Positions 779 through 9,170 of a stretch of 43,698 nt of DNA are shown piece after piece; positions within the stretch are counted from its first letter, which is position 1; every line of letters starts with the position of its first letter. Source of the stretch: Kiritimatiellia bacterium (GTDB lineage: Bacteria; Verrucomicrobiota; Kiritimatiellia; JAAZAB01); NCBI GenBank assembly GCA_028715905.1, contig JAQUQV010000016.1, forward strand, positions 1-43,698. Reading direction: 5' to 3'. The position numbers and the translations under genes are program-made. The notes under the pieces are model-generated. The model was not told the origin of the DNA, made no database searches, and worked only from the letters and a program-made list of their open reading frames with translations.

Positions 779-1093
779 ATGAATGATGAAGGAATCAAGG
801 TAAAATGTATTTATGCTGGCAATAAATCAGATTGTAACGCCTGTAGTCACGCTGTTACTCATGTAAAAAGCATAAATTGCAGCGTGCCGAGCGACGCTTG
901 CGCGGAGGTCGGCCAAAAACATGTCAAAACAATGGTTGTTTGTAAAAACGCGATGTCAAAACAAGAATGCAATCAATGCGCTCATGCAAAACCGCATTTG
1001 ATGCATTGCGGCTGTCATGTCGTTACTCAATCCTGTAATACAATCTGCGCGGAAGAAGGTAAACAGAAAAGCGGAAGCGAGAATTGTCCATGA
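779..1093 (+). CDS. Small Cys/His-rich protein with two internal repeats
   Basis: The family is not recognised. The 104-residue product consists of two tandem units, each with the pattern C-x7-C-x2-C-x-H-A-x2-H followed by further Cys residues (SDCNACSHAVTH in the first, QECNQCAHAKPH in the second). Each unit ends in CAEVG or CAEEG. The spacing of Cys and His suggests metal (zinc) binding, which is an inference. The ATG at 779 is chosen because AGGAAAG lies six bases upstream. The frame also extends back to a TTG at 701, giving a MLFLIGC start that would look like a stub lipobox. The gene overlaps the next one by ATGA and so is probably co-translated with the ankyrin and DnaJ-zinc proteins. 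Base composition is more AT-rich than the rest of the window, hinting at transfer. Confidence 0.72.
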   Translation: MNDEGIKVKCIYAGNKSDCNACSHAVTHVKSINCSVPSDACAEVGQKHVKTMVVCKNAMSKQECNQCAHAKPHLMHCGCHVVTQSCNTICAEEGKQKSGSENCP

Positions 1094-2988
1094 ATGAGAC
1101 AACAGCGCAAAACGAAAAGGAACTCTGGTATTTTACCAGAGGCGGGCACGATCACGGGCCATTTACGAGCGACGAATTGATGGATGCCGCCAATAACGGC
1201 CATATTTTTCCAACTGATGAAGTGTGGAACGATGAGATGGACTATAAAGTGAAAGCTTCGGAGGTGGAAGGTTTATTCAAAAGCACGGCCGCCCGAGACG
1301 AACTCCATCAGCGCATCCTGCAGGCCGAACATAAAATTATGCGCGAGTTAAGGAAATCCGGGTTGGATAAAGCCTTTTCCAGCTCGCGCGCCGCACCGCA
1401 CCGGGTTCCATTCGTGGATACGCTCATATCATTGCCGGGTCGTATTCCCGCCTCCCAACGTCGGATCAATGTTAAACGGATTTTGATCATCGGGGTTGTT
1501 ATGGCTTTTGTTGCCATTGCGGTTTTTGTCATTACCAGGCGTTCAGCCCTGTTGCCTTATTCCATAATAGGAGGCAAAGATGTTGTCTGCCTATCTCTGT
1601 TTGAGGCCGTTACGCGCGGCAACTTTAACCAGGTTAAAGCGAATCTGGCATTGCCGGAAAATAATGTAAACGTTAAAAACTCAGACGGCTGGACGCCGCT
1701 GCATTTGGCCATTATGTTCAATCGTTTGGAAATCTCCGGGTTGTTGTTATCGCATGGAGCTGATATTCAGCCCGCAGATATGGTCCATGGGTTGACTCCT
1801 TTACACTTGGCCAGTTATCAAGGGCAGACGGAAATTGTTGACATCTTGTTGGCGCGCGGGGCGGATGTTAACGCCCGGGATGCGAGTCAGGCAACCCCGT
1901 TGCATAAAGCGGCGCTGAACGGTCACGCTGAAACTCTGCGCCGGTTGCTGGCCAAGGGCGCCGACATCAACGCCGCGCAGTCTGATGGCTGTTCGGTATT
2001 ACATTTGGCCGTCGGTATGAGGCATAAGGATGCAGTCGCGGCGCTATTGGAAAAAGGGGCCATGCCTGATACGTTCAACCGTGGCGATCAAACGCCGCTT
2101 CAGACCGCCGCGATTTTTGGTTACAAGGAGATTGCCGAGCTGCTCATCGCCAAGGGTGCCAACACGCATGCCATGCAAAAAACAACATGGGCTACCCCGC
2201 TACATCTTGCGGCAGCCCATGGACAGCGGGATGTCTGCGATCTTTTATTGGCCAAAGGCGTTGAAATCAACGCAAAAACACGCCAAGATGCCACGCCGCT
2301 TCTGCTGGCCATCGTAAACGGCTCCGAGGCGGTTGCCGGCCTGTTGATTGAACGGGGCGCGGATGTCAAGCTTGGAGACAAGGCCAGCCGATTTCCGTTG
2401 TTGGAGGCCGCAAAAAAAACATCATGTTTACTTGTGCAACAGTTGCTTGACCGCGGAGCCGACCCAAATGTTAAAGATGACCTCGGCTGGACGCCGTTGC
2501 ATATTGCCGCCGACGGCAACAATCTGGAATTGGCTGGATTATTGGCTGCCCGCGGTGCGGATTTAAACGTTATGATGGCCTATCATTGGACCCCATTGCG
2601 CTTGGCGGTAGAACGCGGTCAGACTGAAATAATGGTCTGGCTGATAAACAAAGGAGCAGACGGCAATATAGGTGATTATTCAAAGCTGATTCCGTTGAAC
2701 GCGGCCGTGTCTGCGGGCAAAAAGAATATCGTGGAAATTCTCTTGTCCCGCGCGACCAATATCAACGTAAACGCGGTGACAACGGAAGGGCAAAGCTCAT
2801 TACATGCGGCGGCGGCGAGCGGTAATCAGGAGATGGCCGTTTTGCTTATTGCCGGAGGAGCTAATCTTTATCTCAAGGATAGCGCCGGGCGGACGCCCTC
2901 CGACCTGGCCCGGGCCAATGGCTATCCGGCGTTGGCTGAGCTTTTGGAACCGAAGACTATGAAAAAACAAAACGGCAACGCGTTATGA
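1090..2988 (+). CDS. GYF-domain, single-TM, ankyrin-repeat protein
   Basis: The protein has 632 residues. Residues about 10-63 form a GYF_2-type domain (WYF, GPF, DELMDAANNGHI, VWND), a fold that usually binds proline-rich peptides. A charged linker leads to one membrane segment at about 131-148 (ILIIGVVMAFVAIAVFVI) followed by TRR. The rest is about 14 ankyrin repeats with the usual TPLHLA, A..G and LLL..GAD/N signatures; the first and last are degenerate. The topology (GYF side versus ankyrin side) cannot be settled; the positive TRR after the helix suggests the ankyrin side may be cytoplasmic. The start ATG at 1090 overlaps the upstream stop by ATGA. The role is unknown. The architecture suggests a membrane-anchored scaffold working with its co-translated neighbours. 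Confidence 0.9.
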   Translation: MNETTAQNEKELWYFTRGGHDHGPFTSDELMDAANNGHIFPTDEVWNDEMDYKVKASEVEGLFKSTAARDELHQRILQAEHKIMRELRKSGLDKAFSSSRAAPHRVPFVDTLISLPGRIPASQRRINVKRILIIGVVMAFVAIAVFVITRRSALLPYSIIGGKDVVCLSLFEAVTRGNFNQVKANLALPENNVNVKNSDGWTPLHLAIMFNRLEISGLLLSHGADIQPADMVHGLTPLHLASYQGQTEIVDILLARGADVNARDASQATPLHKAALNGHAETLRRLLAKGADINAAQSDGCSVLHLAVGMRHKDAVAALLEKGAMPDTFNRGDQTPLQTAAIFGYKEIAELLIAKGANTHAMQKTTWATPLHLAAAHGQRDVCDLLLAKGVEINAKTRQDATPLLLAIVNGSEAVAGLLIERGADVKLGDKASRFPLLEAAKKTSCLLVQQLLDRGADPNVKDDLGWTPLHIAADGNNLELAGLLAARGADLNVMMAYHWTPLRLAVERGQTEIMVWLINKGADGNIGDYSKLIPLNAAVSAGKKNIVEILLSRATNINVNAVTTEGQSSLHAAAASGNQEMAVLLIAGGANLYLKDSAGRTPSDLARANGYPALAELLEPKTMKKQNGNAL

Positions 2989-4010
2989 AATATCTTACAA
3001 CAATTGTCAGCATTAGTTTGATGTTTAGTACCGTATCCCGGGTTTATTCTGAGCCGGCTCCGGCCAGTAATGCCGCTCCAGTAATTGCTTTTGAGTTTTA
3101 TAATTCGTATTGCTGGCCAAAGGCTTTGGAATTGTTTTCCGAGTATAAAAACAATTTGCGGCAAGGCCGGTTTGACAAGGCCGCTGCGACGCAGGCTCTG
3201 ATTTATTCGTTACTTGCTACCAACGAAGAACAGACGCGGTTTTGGCAAAAAGTTATTCCAGACGGTCAGCGCCAAGTTCTGGAAATCTATCAGATTTGTC
3301 CTGACTGCAAAAACGGCCATTGTCCGGCCTGCAACGGAAAAGGGGGTTGTCCTCTGTGCCAGGGAAAAAAATATTGTTTGGAATGCCAGGGCAAAGGATC
3401 GTTTTCTAAAAAATGTACTGCCTGTCAGTGCCGGCGTTGCGGGGCCAGCGGCGTCTGTCAGATCTGTTGGGGATATAAAATTCTCAAATGTCCCGCTTGC
3501 AAAGGCACCGGTATGGCCAATCGGGAGTTGGGTCAAAAATGTCCCCAATGCGGCGGTAAGGGACGCGTTAATTGCACTGAGTGCGGTGGCAGTGGTAAAT
3601 GTCCGGTTTGTGCCGGTAAAGGCCGAGTTAGAAACTGTCCCCAATGCGGCGGCAAAGGCGTGGTCATTACAAGCTGTCTTGCCTGCAGCGGCACCGGCCA
3701 ATGTCTTTGCTGTCAGAATTCTGGCGTCTGCCCGGTATGTAAAGGTTCCGGCGTCTGTCCGCGTTGCGGCCAAAAAGGTATTATTATGCGTTATCGTTTT
3801 CCGGTTCAAAACGACTGGACGCGCGTATCGCCGGGGATCATTCTGCGCCGCGAACAGCCGGTCGCCACCAATCAGATATTCAAAAACACGGGCGCCGTTA
3901 ATATTGCCGTCGGTTCGCATAACTTGAATCTCAATATTCAACCCGACGAGATATTCTGCATATCAGATACGGAACGGTTTGACTGGATCAAAAATCAGGT
4001 ATTACAGTAA
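2985..4010 (+). CDS. Exported DnaJ-type zinc-finger (CxxCxGxG) repeat protein
   Basis: The 341-residue product begins with a signal peptide (MKYLTTIVSISLMFSTVSRVYS, likely cut before EPAP). After a helical section of about 80 residues comes a long Cys-rich block, roughly residues 105-265. It has about 16 CxxC pairs, many in the form CPxCxGxG (CPACNGKGG, CPACKGTG, CPQCGGKG, CPVCKGSG). This is the DnaJ central zinc-finger pattern, far expanded over the usual four motifs, with no J domain. The C-terminal 70 residues form a separate small domain. The start overlaps the ankyrin gene by ATGA. A periplasmic zinc-binding or substrate-binding role is inferred from the signal peptide. The repeated DNA is coding and not CRISPR. 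Confidence 0.88.
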   Translation: MKYLTTIVSISLMFSTVSRVYSEPAPASNAAPVIAFEFYNSYCWPKALELFSEYKNNLRQGRFDKAAATQALIYSLLATNEEQTRFWQKVIPDGQRQVLEIYQICPDCKNGHCPACNGKGGCPLCQGKKYCLECQGKGSFSKKCTACQCRRCGASGVCQICWGYKILKCPACKGTGMANRELGQKCPQCGGKGRVNCTECGGSGKCPVCAGKGRVRNCPQCGGKGVVITSCLACSGTGQCLCCQNSGVCPVCKGSGVCPRCGQKGIIMRYRFPVQNDWTRVSPGIILRREQPVATNQIFKNTGAVNIAVGSHNLNLNIQPDEIFCISDTERFDWIKNQVLQ

Positions 4011-4033: not shown

Positions 4034-5629
4034 ATGGTGTCCTCTAATTCCACCGATGAGCCGCGCATTTCTGACCCTGAACGCGAAGTGCTGGCCGCGG
4101 ATGGCACGCAGGAGACGATTACGGAGATTGTGCCCGAAATGCTGAATCCCGAGCTGGTGGCCGAACTCCCGCTTGAATGGGCGGAGACGCACCTTATATT
4201 GCCGATCCTGTATCACGGAAAAATTCGCGTATTAATGGCCAATCCCAAGGATGTTGCCGGATTGAATCATCTGGCTTCTCTTCTTGGTATTCAACCCAAT
4301 CCCGTACTGGCACCACCCGATGTTGTGACTCATGCCATCCAACAAACTTACACCGCTTTACAAGAGTTGCCGCATTCTTTTCTGGGTAAGCTCGATAAAA
4401 AGGGATTATCCATTCCGAAAAAGACGGCTTCTGACGAGGTGGCGGATCTTCTGCAAACGGCCGAAAGCTCTCCTGTTATCCAGCTTGTGAACCTGATCCT
4501 GCTGGAAGCTGTCAAATCAGGCGCCTCAGATATTCATGTGGAACCATTTGAATCCCGGCTGCGCGTGCGTTATCGGATTGACGGCTTGCTCTATGAACTG
4601 GCTAAACCGCCAAAGGATGTTGAGGCGGCCTTAATTTCCCGTTTTAAAATCATGGCGCGTATGGATATTTCCGAACGACGCCTTCCACAGGATGGCGTTA
4701 CGCGCATCCGGATTGGCGATCGGGAAATTGATATCCGGGTTTCCTCGGTGCCGGTGGCCGAAGGCGAACGGGTCGTTTTGCGTATTCTCAACCGCGATTC
4801 CACACTTCTCTCGCTGGCGGAACTTGGCATGTCGGATGATATTTTCAAACAATGGCAAGCTCTGATCCGGCAGCCCAACGGAATTATTCTTGTCTGTGGT
4901 CCGACCGGTTCCGGCAAGACAACCACGCTCTACAGCAGTATCCAATTGCTTGATTATAATACCACCAATATTCTTACCATTGAAGACCCGATTGAATATC
5001 AATTGCCGAATATTAACCAGATACAGGTGCGGCCCAAGATTGGTCTGACCTTTGCCAACGGTCTGCGGCATATCTTGCGCCAGGACCCCGATGTTATTCT
5101 GGTCGGCGAAATCCGCGACTTTGAAACCGCCCAGATTGCCGTGCAGTCCTCGCTTACAGGACATCTCGTTTTCAGCACATTGCATACCAACGATACTTCC
5201 AGTGCCGTGATCCGCATCATGGATATGGGGGTGGAACCGTATCTATTAGCAGCTTCTCTGCGCGGCGTAATGGCTCAGCGGTTGGCCCGCCGCCTATGTC
5301 CTCAATGCCGGACTCCGGCCGCGTTGACCGCCAATGAACAGGAGATATTGGCGCCGTGGAAAGATAAAATAGATCTGGAGAAAATGTTAGCTCCCGCCGG
5401 TTGTGAGTCTTGCCTGGCGGGATATCGCGGCCGGGTGGGATTGTATGAGCTTATGATCGTGGATGCGGATATTTTTGAAAAACTCCGGGCGCGCCAGAGC
5501 AGCTGCCGTGAAATCCGTGAATTATCAATTCGCAACGGCATGCGTTCCATGTGGGAAGACGGCCTTAATAAAATGGCTCAAGGGATAACCAGCTTGAATG
5601 AAATCATACGCACTATAGGGGTTACATAG
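4034..5629 (+). CDS. gspE: Type II secretion / type IV pilus ATPase GspE/PilB
   Basis: This is a hexameric AAA-like ATPase that powers assembly of pseudopili in type II secretion. The start at 4034 is supported by AGAAGGA nine bases upstream and gives 531 residues, normal for GspE. An N-terminal MshEN-like domain (residues about 20-110) precedes the core. The Walker A is GPTGSGKTTT at about 289-298, followed by the Asp box, Walker B (DPDVILVGEIRD) and His box (STLHTND). The C-terminal tetracysteine zinc motif is present (CPQC and CESC). No other gsp or pil genes lie in the window, so the gene is detached from its machine. It follows the Cys-rich/ankyrin/DnaJ-zinc trio by 23 bases and may share its transcript. 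PilB is the alternative name; the zinc motif and length favour GspE. Confidence 0.93.
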   Translation: MVSSNSTDEPRISDPEREVLAADGTQETITEIVPEMLNPELVAELPLEWAETHLILPILYHGKIRVLMANPKDVAGLNHLASLLGIQPNPVLAPPDVVTHAIQQTYTALQELPHSFLGKLDKKGLSIPKKTASDEVADLLQTAESSPVIQLVNLILLEAVKSGASDIHVEPFESRLRVRYRIDGLLYELAKPPKDVEAALISRFKIMARMDISERRLPQDGVTRIRIGDREIDIRVSSVPVAEGERVVLRILNRDSTLLSLAELGMSDDIFKQWQALIRQPNGIILVCGPTGSGKTTTLYSSIQLLDYNTTNILTIEDPIEYQLPNINQIQVRPKIGLTFANGLRHILRQDPDVILVGEIRDFETAQIAVQSSLTGHLVFSTLHTNDTSSAVIRIMDMGVEPYLLAASLRGVMAQRLARRLCPQCRTPAALTANEQEILAPWKDKIDLEKMLAPAGCESCLAGYRGRVGLYELMIVDADIFEKLRARQSSCREIRELSIRNGMRSMWEDGLNKMAQGITSLNEIIRTIGVT

Positions 5630-5821: not shown

Positions 5822-6553
5822 TTATCGCAGAAAGCGGTTGGATTCCAGTTCGCGGGCAATGGTCGTTTCCGGGCCATGGCCGGGATAAATTTTTGTCTGC
5901 GGCGGCAGGGCGGCGATGATTTTCAGGGATGAGGCCAATTGTTCCATGCTGCCCCCCGGCAAATCGGTCCGGCCGACGCTATCCCGGAAAAGGGTATCGC
6001 CGGAAAACAGAATGTGGTCATCCGGGAAATAAAAACAGACGCCCCCCGGAGAGTGGCCCGGGGTATGGATGACGCGAAAGGAGAAATCTTCCGCATGCCG
6101 GAGTTGTAATTTTCCGCTTGATGAAGGGCGGCTACCCCTTTGTCCGGCGGCGGCCGGCCCGCCCTTTGGTCCGGCCGGATCCAGCGCGGCGGATTTCATG
6201 CCCCCAAATATTTCGCCGCCCTTCAGGAGGCATTCAATCCGTCCCGGTTTTTGCGGAACTGAACAGTAAGGCGGCAATTGGTTGCTTTCCGTGAATGCCC
6301 ATTTGAGGTCGGCGCCGTGCATGGCGATGGGAGCCGGAATATGTTCCTGAAGCGCCGCCAGGGCTCCGACGTGGTCGGTATGGCCGTGGGTTATCAAATA
6401 ACCTTTAACCGTCAGGCGGCAATGAGCGATGGTTTTCGCGATTGCGCCGGCATCCGCGCCCGGATCAACAATCAGCGTCTCAAGCGCGCCGTTCCGGACG
6501 ATGTAACAGTTGACGGACAGGTTCCCGACAACGATTTTGGCAATGGTCAGCAT
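5822..6553 (-). CDS. MBL-fold metallo-hydrolase (glyoxalase II-like)
   Basis: The product has 243 residues. Metal ligands are visible: THGHTDH at residues 55-61, the His of HTPGHSPGG, the Asp of FSGDTLF, and the His of YPGHGPET near the end. This is the GloB/YcbL-like branch that hydrolyses thioesters such as S-lactoylglutathione; the exact substrate is unknown. Residues about 119-153 are an unusual Gly/Pro/Ala/Ser-rich insertion (PAGPKGGPAAAGQRGSRP), encoded by very GC-rich partly palindromic DNA, just before the strand leading to the HTPGHS motif. Close relatives normally have a short loop there. No clear ribosome site precedes the ATG. The gene is divergent from the HU gene. Confidence 0.88.
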   Translation of the reverse strand: MLTIAKIVVGNLSVNCYIVRNGALETLIVDPGADAGAIAKTIAHCRLTVKGYLITHGHTDHVGALAALQEHIPAPIAMHGADLKWAFTESNQLPPYCSVPQKPGRIECLLKGGEIFGGMKSAALDPAGPKGGPAAAGQRGSRPSSSGKLQLRHAEDFSFRVIHTPGHSPGGVCFYFPDDHILFSGDTLFRDSVGRTDLPGGSMEQLASSLKIIAALPPQTKIYPGHGPETTIARELESNRFLR

Positions 6554-7900: not shown

Positions 7901-9170
7901 AGCGTCCCGCGGCCGCTTCATAAATTTTGCGCAGGGGCGCGCCGGTTTTTGCCGCCAGCTTGCGGCAGTCATCGTATTCCGGCGCGCGGGTGATTCTTCG
8001 GCCCCGCCATGATCCGATTTTCACGCGCACTTTGCCGTAGGGCGTTTTGACTGTCTCTGAACACCGCGGCAGAACCGTCCGCCGGACATCATATTCCCGC
8101 ACGCCGAATGTCGTACTTTCACGAAAGATAATGTCCAGCATTTCGTTCCTCTGCTCTCCGGCGCAGAGAACGGTCAGCATCGCGCCGGGCCGGTTTTTTT
8201 TCATCTGAACCGGAGTAATGAAGACATCCAGGGCGCCCCGCTCCAGGAGCCGGTTGAAAAGATGGCCGGTAAGTTCCGGCGACATATCATCCAAATTGCA
8301 TTCCAGCACGAGGCATTTTTCATGGCCGGCTTCCGTGGATAGAGCGGAACGGCCCTCTCCCGCCGTTTTTCCGGCATTATTTCGGCCGCCCAGCTTATGC
8401 GGCCCCGCCTCTTTCAAATTGCCGGTTTCCAGCAAAACCGCCCTCAGGAGATTGGGGCGGTTGTTGAGTTGAAAATGCCCGAACCCGCCGCCGGCGCGCA
8501 ATATTGTTGCCCCGGCCGGCGCCCGGTCTATATTTTTCCAGCTTGTCAGAAGGGCGGCGCCGGTCGGCGTAACCAATTCAAAGGGTTCCTCCGTCTGCTC
8601 AACCGCGAACCCCTTCAGCAATTCCACCGTGGCCGGGGCGGGCGAGGGCAGAATGCCGTGCGCGCATTTTATCGTTCCGCATCCAAGCGGCAGGCGGCCG
8701 AGCGCCACTTGGTCGGCGCCGAGCTGTTCAAGCGCGATACAGGAGCCGACAATATCAACGATTGAATCCAGGGCGCCGACTTCATGAAAATGGATTTCCG
8801 AAAGCCGCGCGCCGTGCGCTTTGGCCTCGGCCCGCGCCAGCCGGCGGAACACGCCGCGCGCCTGTTCTTTAACGCGGGGTGAAAGCCGGCTTTTGTCAAT
8901 GAGCTTTTCAATATCATTCAGATTGCGATGCTGATGCTCATGGCCGTGCCTGCCGTGCCGGTAAATATCAACCTTGACGCGCGTGCCCCGCAGGCCGTTT
9001 TGCCGGACTGGCCGGGGTTTAATGTCAAAGCGGTCCTTGACCATTGTTTTCAGTCCGGCCCGGATTGCCTGCAAGTCGGCGCCCAGGTCCAGGAGGCAGG
9101 CCAGGATCATATCGCCGCTGGCCCCGCCCACGCTGTCAAAACAAATAATTTTATTCCGCCGGGCCTTCAT
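7827..9170 (-). CDS. larC: Nickel-pincer cofactor biosynthesis protein LarC
   Basis: LarC is the CTP-dependent nickel insertase that completes the nickel-pincer nucleotide cofactor of lactate racemase LarA and relatives. The 447-residue product carries the family start CFDSVGGASGDMILACLLDLG and the motif HFHEVGALDSIVDIVG. It also carries the C-terminal domain (ECNLDDMSPELTGHL, RRTVLPR). In some bacteria larC is split or needs a programmed frameshift; here it is one continuous frame. The ATG overlaps the larB stop (ATGA), so the two are co-translated. The 3' end overlaps dapF antisense by 74 bases. Confidence 0.95.
   Translation of the reverse strand: MKARRNKIICFDSVGGASGDMILACLLDLGADLQAIRAGLKTMVKDRFDIKPRPVRQNGLRGTRVKVDIYRHGRHGHEHQHRNLNDIEKLIDKSRLSPRVKEQARGVFRRLARAEAKAHGARLSEIHFHEVGALDSIVDIVGSCIALEQLGADQVALGRLPLGCGTIKCAHGILPSPAPATVELLKGFAVEQTEEPFELVTPTGAALLTSWKNIDRAPAGATILRAGGGFGHFQLNNRPNLLRAVLLETGNLKEAGPHKLGGRNNAGKTAGEGRSALSTEAGHEKCLVLECNLDDMSPELTGHLFNRLLERGALDVFITPVQMKKNRPGAMLTVLCAGEQRNEMLDIIFRESTTFGVREYDVRRTVLPRCSETVKTPYGKVRVKIGSWRGRRITRAPEYDDCRKLAAKTGAPLRKIYEAAAGRFTLNSGARGMKFPHETQIPPAPKA

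Follow-up and report, generated by a model that had tools for sequence, protein, structure and literature searches.

The three genes that precede a gspE-like gene at the start of the window (the whole stretch of DNA analysed here, 43,698 nucleotides, corresponding to contig C16 of a 2.67-Mb assembly of 141 contigs that is 96% complete) form an operon that is real and unusual, and that is found whole in one genome only. It contains a well-supported pairing of an ankyrin protein with a DnaJ-type zinc-repeat protein, and its link to type IV filament systems is suggestive.

The window opens with a tRNA gene, after which the operon lies on the forward strand. P1 (779-1093, ATG 779 to TGA 1093) encodes a Cys/His-rich protein of 104 aa, P2 (1090-2988, ATG 1090 to TGA 2988) a protein of 632 aa composed of a GYF_2 domain, a transmembrane (TM) segment and ankyrin repeats, and P3 (2985-4010, ATG 2985 to TAA 4010) a CxxCxGxG-repeat protein of 341 aa; the gspE paralogue (4034-5629, starting at ATG 4034), which encodes a GspE/PilB-type ATPase, follows on the same strand after a gap of 23 nt. 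The P2 start lies in the P1 stop and the P3 start in the P2 stop, each through an ATGA overlap (1090-1093 and 2985-2988, respectively). A check of the open reading frames thus reproduces exactly the anatomy given in a preliminary description of this DNA, namely three reading frames, two ATGA overlaps and a gspE 23 nt further on. A Shine-Dalgarno-like AGGAA is present upstream of both P1 and gspE, and the P3 start has no such sequence, as expected from its translational coupling. Beyond this operon, an MBL-fold-like hydrolase recognised by eye (5822-6553, reverse strand) carries a Pro/Gly/Ser-rich insertion of ~35 aa around GGMKSAALDPAGPKGGPAAAGQRGSRPSSSGKLQL.

P2 had been described as a GYF domain, a membrane segment and 14 ankyrin repeats, and both a Pfam scan and a reading of the repeats agree with this. 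The GYF_2 domain (PF14237, aa 13-62) reaches 36.3 bits (cut-off 25.8), the single, strongly hydrophobic TM segment lies near aa 125-150, with its core at about aa 131-149, and the 14 repeats of 33-34 aa (about aa 166-627) give an ankyrin match of E 1e-76 or better. PADLOC matches to P2 were set aside, since only the ankyrin repeats were matched. More positive charge lies on the N-terminal side of the TM segment (RRINVKR) than after it, which suggests an N-in, C-out topology; the ankyrin side would then be outside the membrane, where P3 is predicted to be exported. Like P2, bacterial GYF_2 membrane proteins have an N-terminal GYF_2 domain of cytoplasmic type followed by a TM segment, but P2 differs from them in its C-terminal part, which is made of the 14 ankyrin repeats. 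Among the matches of relatives, those GYF_2 proteins that were read have several TM segments or other domains, without ankyrin.

P3 contains 35 Cys and 16 CxxC pairs, nine of which are of the CxxCxGxG form, between a helical N-domain (about aa 43-104) and a C-terminal domain (about aa 262-341), and its N-terminus, read by eye, resembles a signal peptide (MKYLTTIVSISLMFSTVSRVYS, with the break placed before EP). It has neither a J domain nor a Pfam match above cut-off. The earlier reading of a signal-peptide protein with about 16 CxxC pairs and no J domain is therefore retained, export being predicted from the sequence. P3 cannot be placed among the type I DnaJ/Hsp40 proteins, as it lacks the J domain and its HPD motif and is not matched by DnaJ_CXXCXGXG, which reaches 27-28 bits in its relatives against a Pfam cut-off of 32.7; it has the tandem CxxCxGxG repeats, without J or G/F domain, of the J-less DnaJ-type zinc-finger class. 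A profile search of 346 genomes of the class, seeded with members from a first search of relatives, finds full-length members of the P3 family in six of them (G002, G028, G034, G331, G338 and the genome of the window); the P3 profile matches class members only among 388 sampled genomes of the phylum, and no close relative of P3 is found in GTDB 220. The homology is not confined to the Cys repeats: an HMM of five relatives matches the N-domain of P3 at E 1e-12 and its C-domain at E 1e-9, the best of 2000 shuffles reaching 0.008 and 0.19, respectively. The N-termini of the family members, judged by eye, are signal-peptide, lipobox-like or TM sequences. On these features, P3 is assigned to a new, class-restricted family of predicted exported or membrane proteins, marked by its own N- and C-terminal domains. 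AlphaFold models built from single sequences reach pLDDT values of 51 and 35 and are uninformative. In G338, the P3-family gene is preceded at a distance of ~5 kb by a gene for a GYF_2-DUF2569 membrane protein (L146, 2953-3729, forward strand).

The P1-P2-P3 gene set is found together in one genome only among the relatives, the 346 class genomes and the 388 phylum genomes. As none of the five other P3-family members lies beside an ankyrin or a P1 gene, the cassette does not qualify as a conserved system; homologues are scattered, and the expectation that the three genes would travel together elsewhere is abandoned by the preliminary description's own standard. What does recur is the pairing of ankyrin with CxxCxGxG repeats. 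Both are encoded in one protein by two genomes from the taxonomic family to which the window belongs: the fusion of G002 (contig C62; L051, 76-1683, reverse strand) is composed of a TM segment, ankyrin repeats and then zinc repeats, and that of G004 (contig C139; L053, 4158-5603, forward strand), an ORF with an ambiguous N-terminal part, of ankyrin and CxxCxGxG repeats. In a single-sequence search with P3, only the true P3 family scores better than these two. Like P2 and P3 taken together, both fusions join ankyrin repeats to DnaJ-type zinc repeats, and in that of G002 the TM segment precedes the ankyrins, as in P2, with the zinc part on the ankyrin side of the membrane. They differ from the window in being single polypeptides, without P1 and without a neighbouring gspE, and the G002 fusion also lacks a GYF domain. 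Since two genomes of the same family fuse the two kinds of repeat, the P2-P3 pairing is probably functional; no other independent evidence speaks as strongly for a partnership of the two proteins. The proposal of a single complex, in which two zinc proteins bracket a membrane scaffold, is thus strengthened for P2 and P3 but not for P1, which is found in one genome and has no relative in the collections searched. Separate ankyrin genes of relatives lack a CxxC gene in the flanking ~1.5 kb, and our literature search found no paper joining CXXCXGXG with ankyrin in bacteria. The joining of a solenoid to zinc repeats is also seen outside the ankyrin fusions, as a protein of 767 aa in G214 (L148, 6627-8930, reverse strand) has seven Sel1 repeats and after them CxxCxGxG repeats of the DnaJ type, along with a hydrophobic segment.

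The gspE of the window is an extra, diverged and faster-evolving paralogue, and not the canonical gspE of a type II secretion system (T2SS). Its product has, like GspE/EpsE and PilB, a T2SSE domain, MshEN, Walker motifs (A and B) and the tetracysteine zinc site, all of them intact together with the Asp and His boxes, and it scores 601 against TIGR02533, whose cut-off is 630. Nine T2SSE-family ATPase matches are found in the genome, two of which are GspE-like and fall in one clade (family clade support 98/99): the window copy, with a branch of 0.80, and a copy with a branch of 0.44 on contig C7 (G000:C7:12316-13842), which belongs to a canonical set of gspD-gspE with gspF nearby. In contrast to the latter, the window copy is a diverged second copy that lies 3' of P1-P3 and away from gspD and gspF, neither of which is found beside it, so that no genetic link to these genes is seen. 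In the relatives that were read, gspE is accompanied by gspD and gspF, often after lpxA, and P1-P3 are absent; a conserved neighbourhood of gspE and P1-P3 was rejected on the ground that these orthologues sit with gspD and gspF. The gene within 23 bases of P3 is thus confirmed as a gspE homologue, but it had been taken as a plain gspE, which is the role of the C7 copy. As the ATPase and tetracysteine motifs are intact, and as the tetracysteine site of EpsE binds zinc and is essential (PMC5061722), the window GspE is probably a working second motor, distinct from the canonical one.

A class-wide profile search gave 17 loci encoding CxxCxGxG proteins without a J domain, and five of them have a T2SSE or TadE gene no further than 3-5 kb away, when 0.27-0.39 would be expected from genome coverage; this count is post hoc, having been designed once the neighbours were known, and the lineages share one family and are not independent, so that the association with filament genes is suggestive and operates by analogy. 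Four of these five loci (in G029, G140, G144 and G096) belong to a second exported family, of about 400 aa, with a zinc ribbon, 15-16 CxxC pairs and no J domain, and further members in G041 and G012 are also found beside Tad genes. The linkage of this family to TadE/TadG genes, usually in divergent orientation, spans the taxonomic families f4, f6 and f12 of the class (L147 7903-9093, L152 5142-6353 and L149 1272-2477, reverse strand; L151 6295-7572, L244 15978-17258 and L245 9872-11254, forward strand), and its product is a possible accessory zinc protein of Tad pili. Common ancestry of P3 and this Tad-linked family was considered and rejected, as their N-terminal domains are dissimilar and no homology is found outside the Cys repeats. 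In G097, a membrane-type CxxCxGxG protein (L153, 7116-8192, reverse strand) is encoded divergently from a T2SSG pseudopilin (8294-9115, forward strand), ~100 bp away, and in G078 a CxxCxGxG protein adjoins a PilM gene. None of the five other P3-family members has a gspE alongside, the nearest gene of this kind being a PilT-like gene ~6 kb away in G034; the link between the P3 family and gspE thus consists of one case and of analogy. The suggestion of the preliminary description that the cassette might be connected with secretion therefore finds support, by analogy, in the class-wide proximity of CxxCxGxG proteins to filament genes, through an unrelated family, but not by the neighbours of the other P3-family genes.

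The explanation that we put first, although we regard it only as possible and open to serious doubt, is that the operon is a lineage-specific envelope module, in which P3 would act as a zinc chaperone or redox protein on the P2 scaffold and serve a T2SS-like machine powered by the GspE paralogue. P3, as a predicted exported protein with many DnaJ-type zinc modules and no J domain, could be a periplasmic holdase or thiol/zinc chaperone, by analogy with the thylakoid protein ZnJ6, a J-less DnaJ-type zinc protein that binds zinc and has holdase and oxidising activity (PMC7865324). P2 would be a single-pass scaffold, whose ankyrin solenoid, on the outside, could hold P3 or its clients and whose GYF domain could bind, on the cytoplasmic side, a partner rich in proline. 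The GspE paralogue, taken to be co-transcribed, would power a T2SS-like or pseudopilus machine as its ATPase in the cytoplasm; the module would be accessory to this machine, guarding or sorting its substrates or pilin-like subunits, and would be regulated by P1, a presumed small zinc protein of the cytoplasm. Gene order, overlaps, domains, P3-family homology, the fusions of relatives, the intact ATPase motifs and the paralogue status of gspE are read directly from the sequences, and the binding of zinc, export, topology, contacts between the proteins, chaperone activity, the T2SS link and the role of P1 are proposals.

Alternatively, and with a credible though less than even chance, P2 and P3 could form an envelope complex of scaffold and zinc-repeat protein unrelated to secretion, acting for example in metal or redox buffering or in general protein quality control; gspE would then be no more than the gene that follows, a divergent duplicate that came to lie 3' of them. 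This would account for the lack of an adjacent filament gene at five of the six P3-family loci and alongside the G002 and G004 fusions, as well as for the long branch of the window gspE in a genome that keeps canonical gspD-gspE and gspF on C7. It is less easily reconciled with the 23-nt spacing, the common strand and the intact ATPase motifs, which favour co-expression and function of gspE, or with the exported zinc-repeat proteins encoded, in other genomes of the class, next to Tad, T2SSG and PilM genes.

P1 contains 13 Cys and 7 His in its 104 aa and has no signal peptide. Its two repeat units (800-928 and 935-1072) align with a score of 74, whereas shuffled sequences have a mean of 29 and a maximum of 67, none of 5000 reaching it; the two-unit Cys/His repeat noticed earlier is therefore genuine. 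The Cys and His of both units align, with a spacing of the C-x8-C-x2-C-x-H-x3-H type kept between them, which speaks for translation of the frame and for selection at the protein level. No relative of P1 is found in 58 related genomes by single-sequence search (the matches had stops or were noise), in the 346 class genomes with a profile of the two units (nothing above noise), or in GTDB 220, viral contigs, plasmids or phages, and there is no match in Pfam, NCBIfam, PHROGs, PADLOC or PDB. Across 288 class genomes, a CxxCxHxxPH DNA pattern occurs at about twice the frequency of the reversed-pattern control, and the candidates read are not Cys-rich small proteins. P1 is thus an orphan, and the idea that its homologues would adjoin GYF-ankyrin and CxxCxGxG genes finds no case among the 346 class genomes. 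Third-position GC is 0.38 in P1, compared to 0.55-0.68 in neighbouring genes (those measured lie 3' of P3), and that of P3 is likewise below its neighbours; with no homologue and such a low value, P1 may be of recent origin and matter little.

These properties would suit a young cassette, specific to the lineage, in which unrelated genes (an orphan, one for an ankyrin protein and one for a Cys-repeat protein) have come together without joint function, as would the presence of the cassette in a single genome, but we consider this explanation unlikely: it is opposed by the two tight translational overlaps, by the protein-level selection that the Cys/His spacing of the P1 units suggests, and by the ankyrin-CxxCxGxG fusions of two genomes of the same family. 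Finally, P2 and P3 are very improbable as surface or secreted factors of host or prey contact exported by a dedicated GspE machine, on the model of the ankyrin-rich repertoires of amoeba-associated bacteria such as Babela massiliensis, which has ankyrin-rich secreted proteins and a T2SS as its only secretion system (PMC4378268), because the genome holds one ankyrin protein of P2's strength only and P2 is predicted to be membrane-anchored, with its GYF domain on the opposite side.

P3 can be compared to the DnaJE type (BSD2, PSA2 and ZnJ6 of chloroplasts), which likewise has CxxCxGxG repeats without J and G/F domains and of which some members are membrane-associated or lumenal. P3 differs from these chloroplast proteins in being bacterial and, as predicted, exported, in its 16 CxxC pairs compared to their four motifs, and in having its own conserved N- and C-terminal domains; the P3-family members scanned have no BSD2_CRD match, and DnaJ_CXXCXGXG stays below cut-off. 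The most thorough studies of J-less DnaJ-type zinc proteins concern chloroplasts, in which they assist the assembly of membrane complexes. A broader conjecture, to which we give little credence at present, is that type IV filament machines of the class (Tad pili, T2SS) have periplasmic chaperones dedicated to them, namely the exported DnaJ-type zinc-repeat proteins. The window would then show the most elaborate form, combining in a single operon an ankyrin membrane scaffold, a zinc chaperone and a GspE motor of its own. An exported bacterial family such as that of P3, with repeats that are fused to ankyrin in relatives, together with the unrelated family kept beside Tad genes, would suggest that bacteria also use such zinc chaperones for the assembly of envelope machines.
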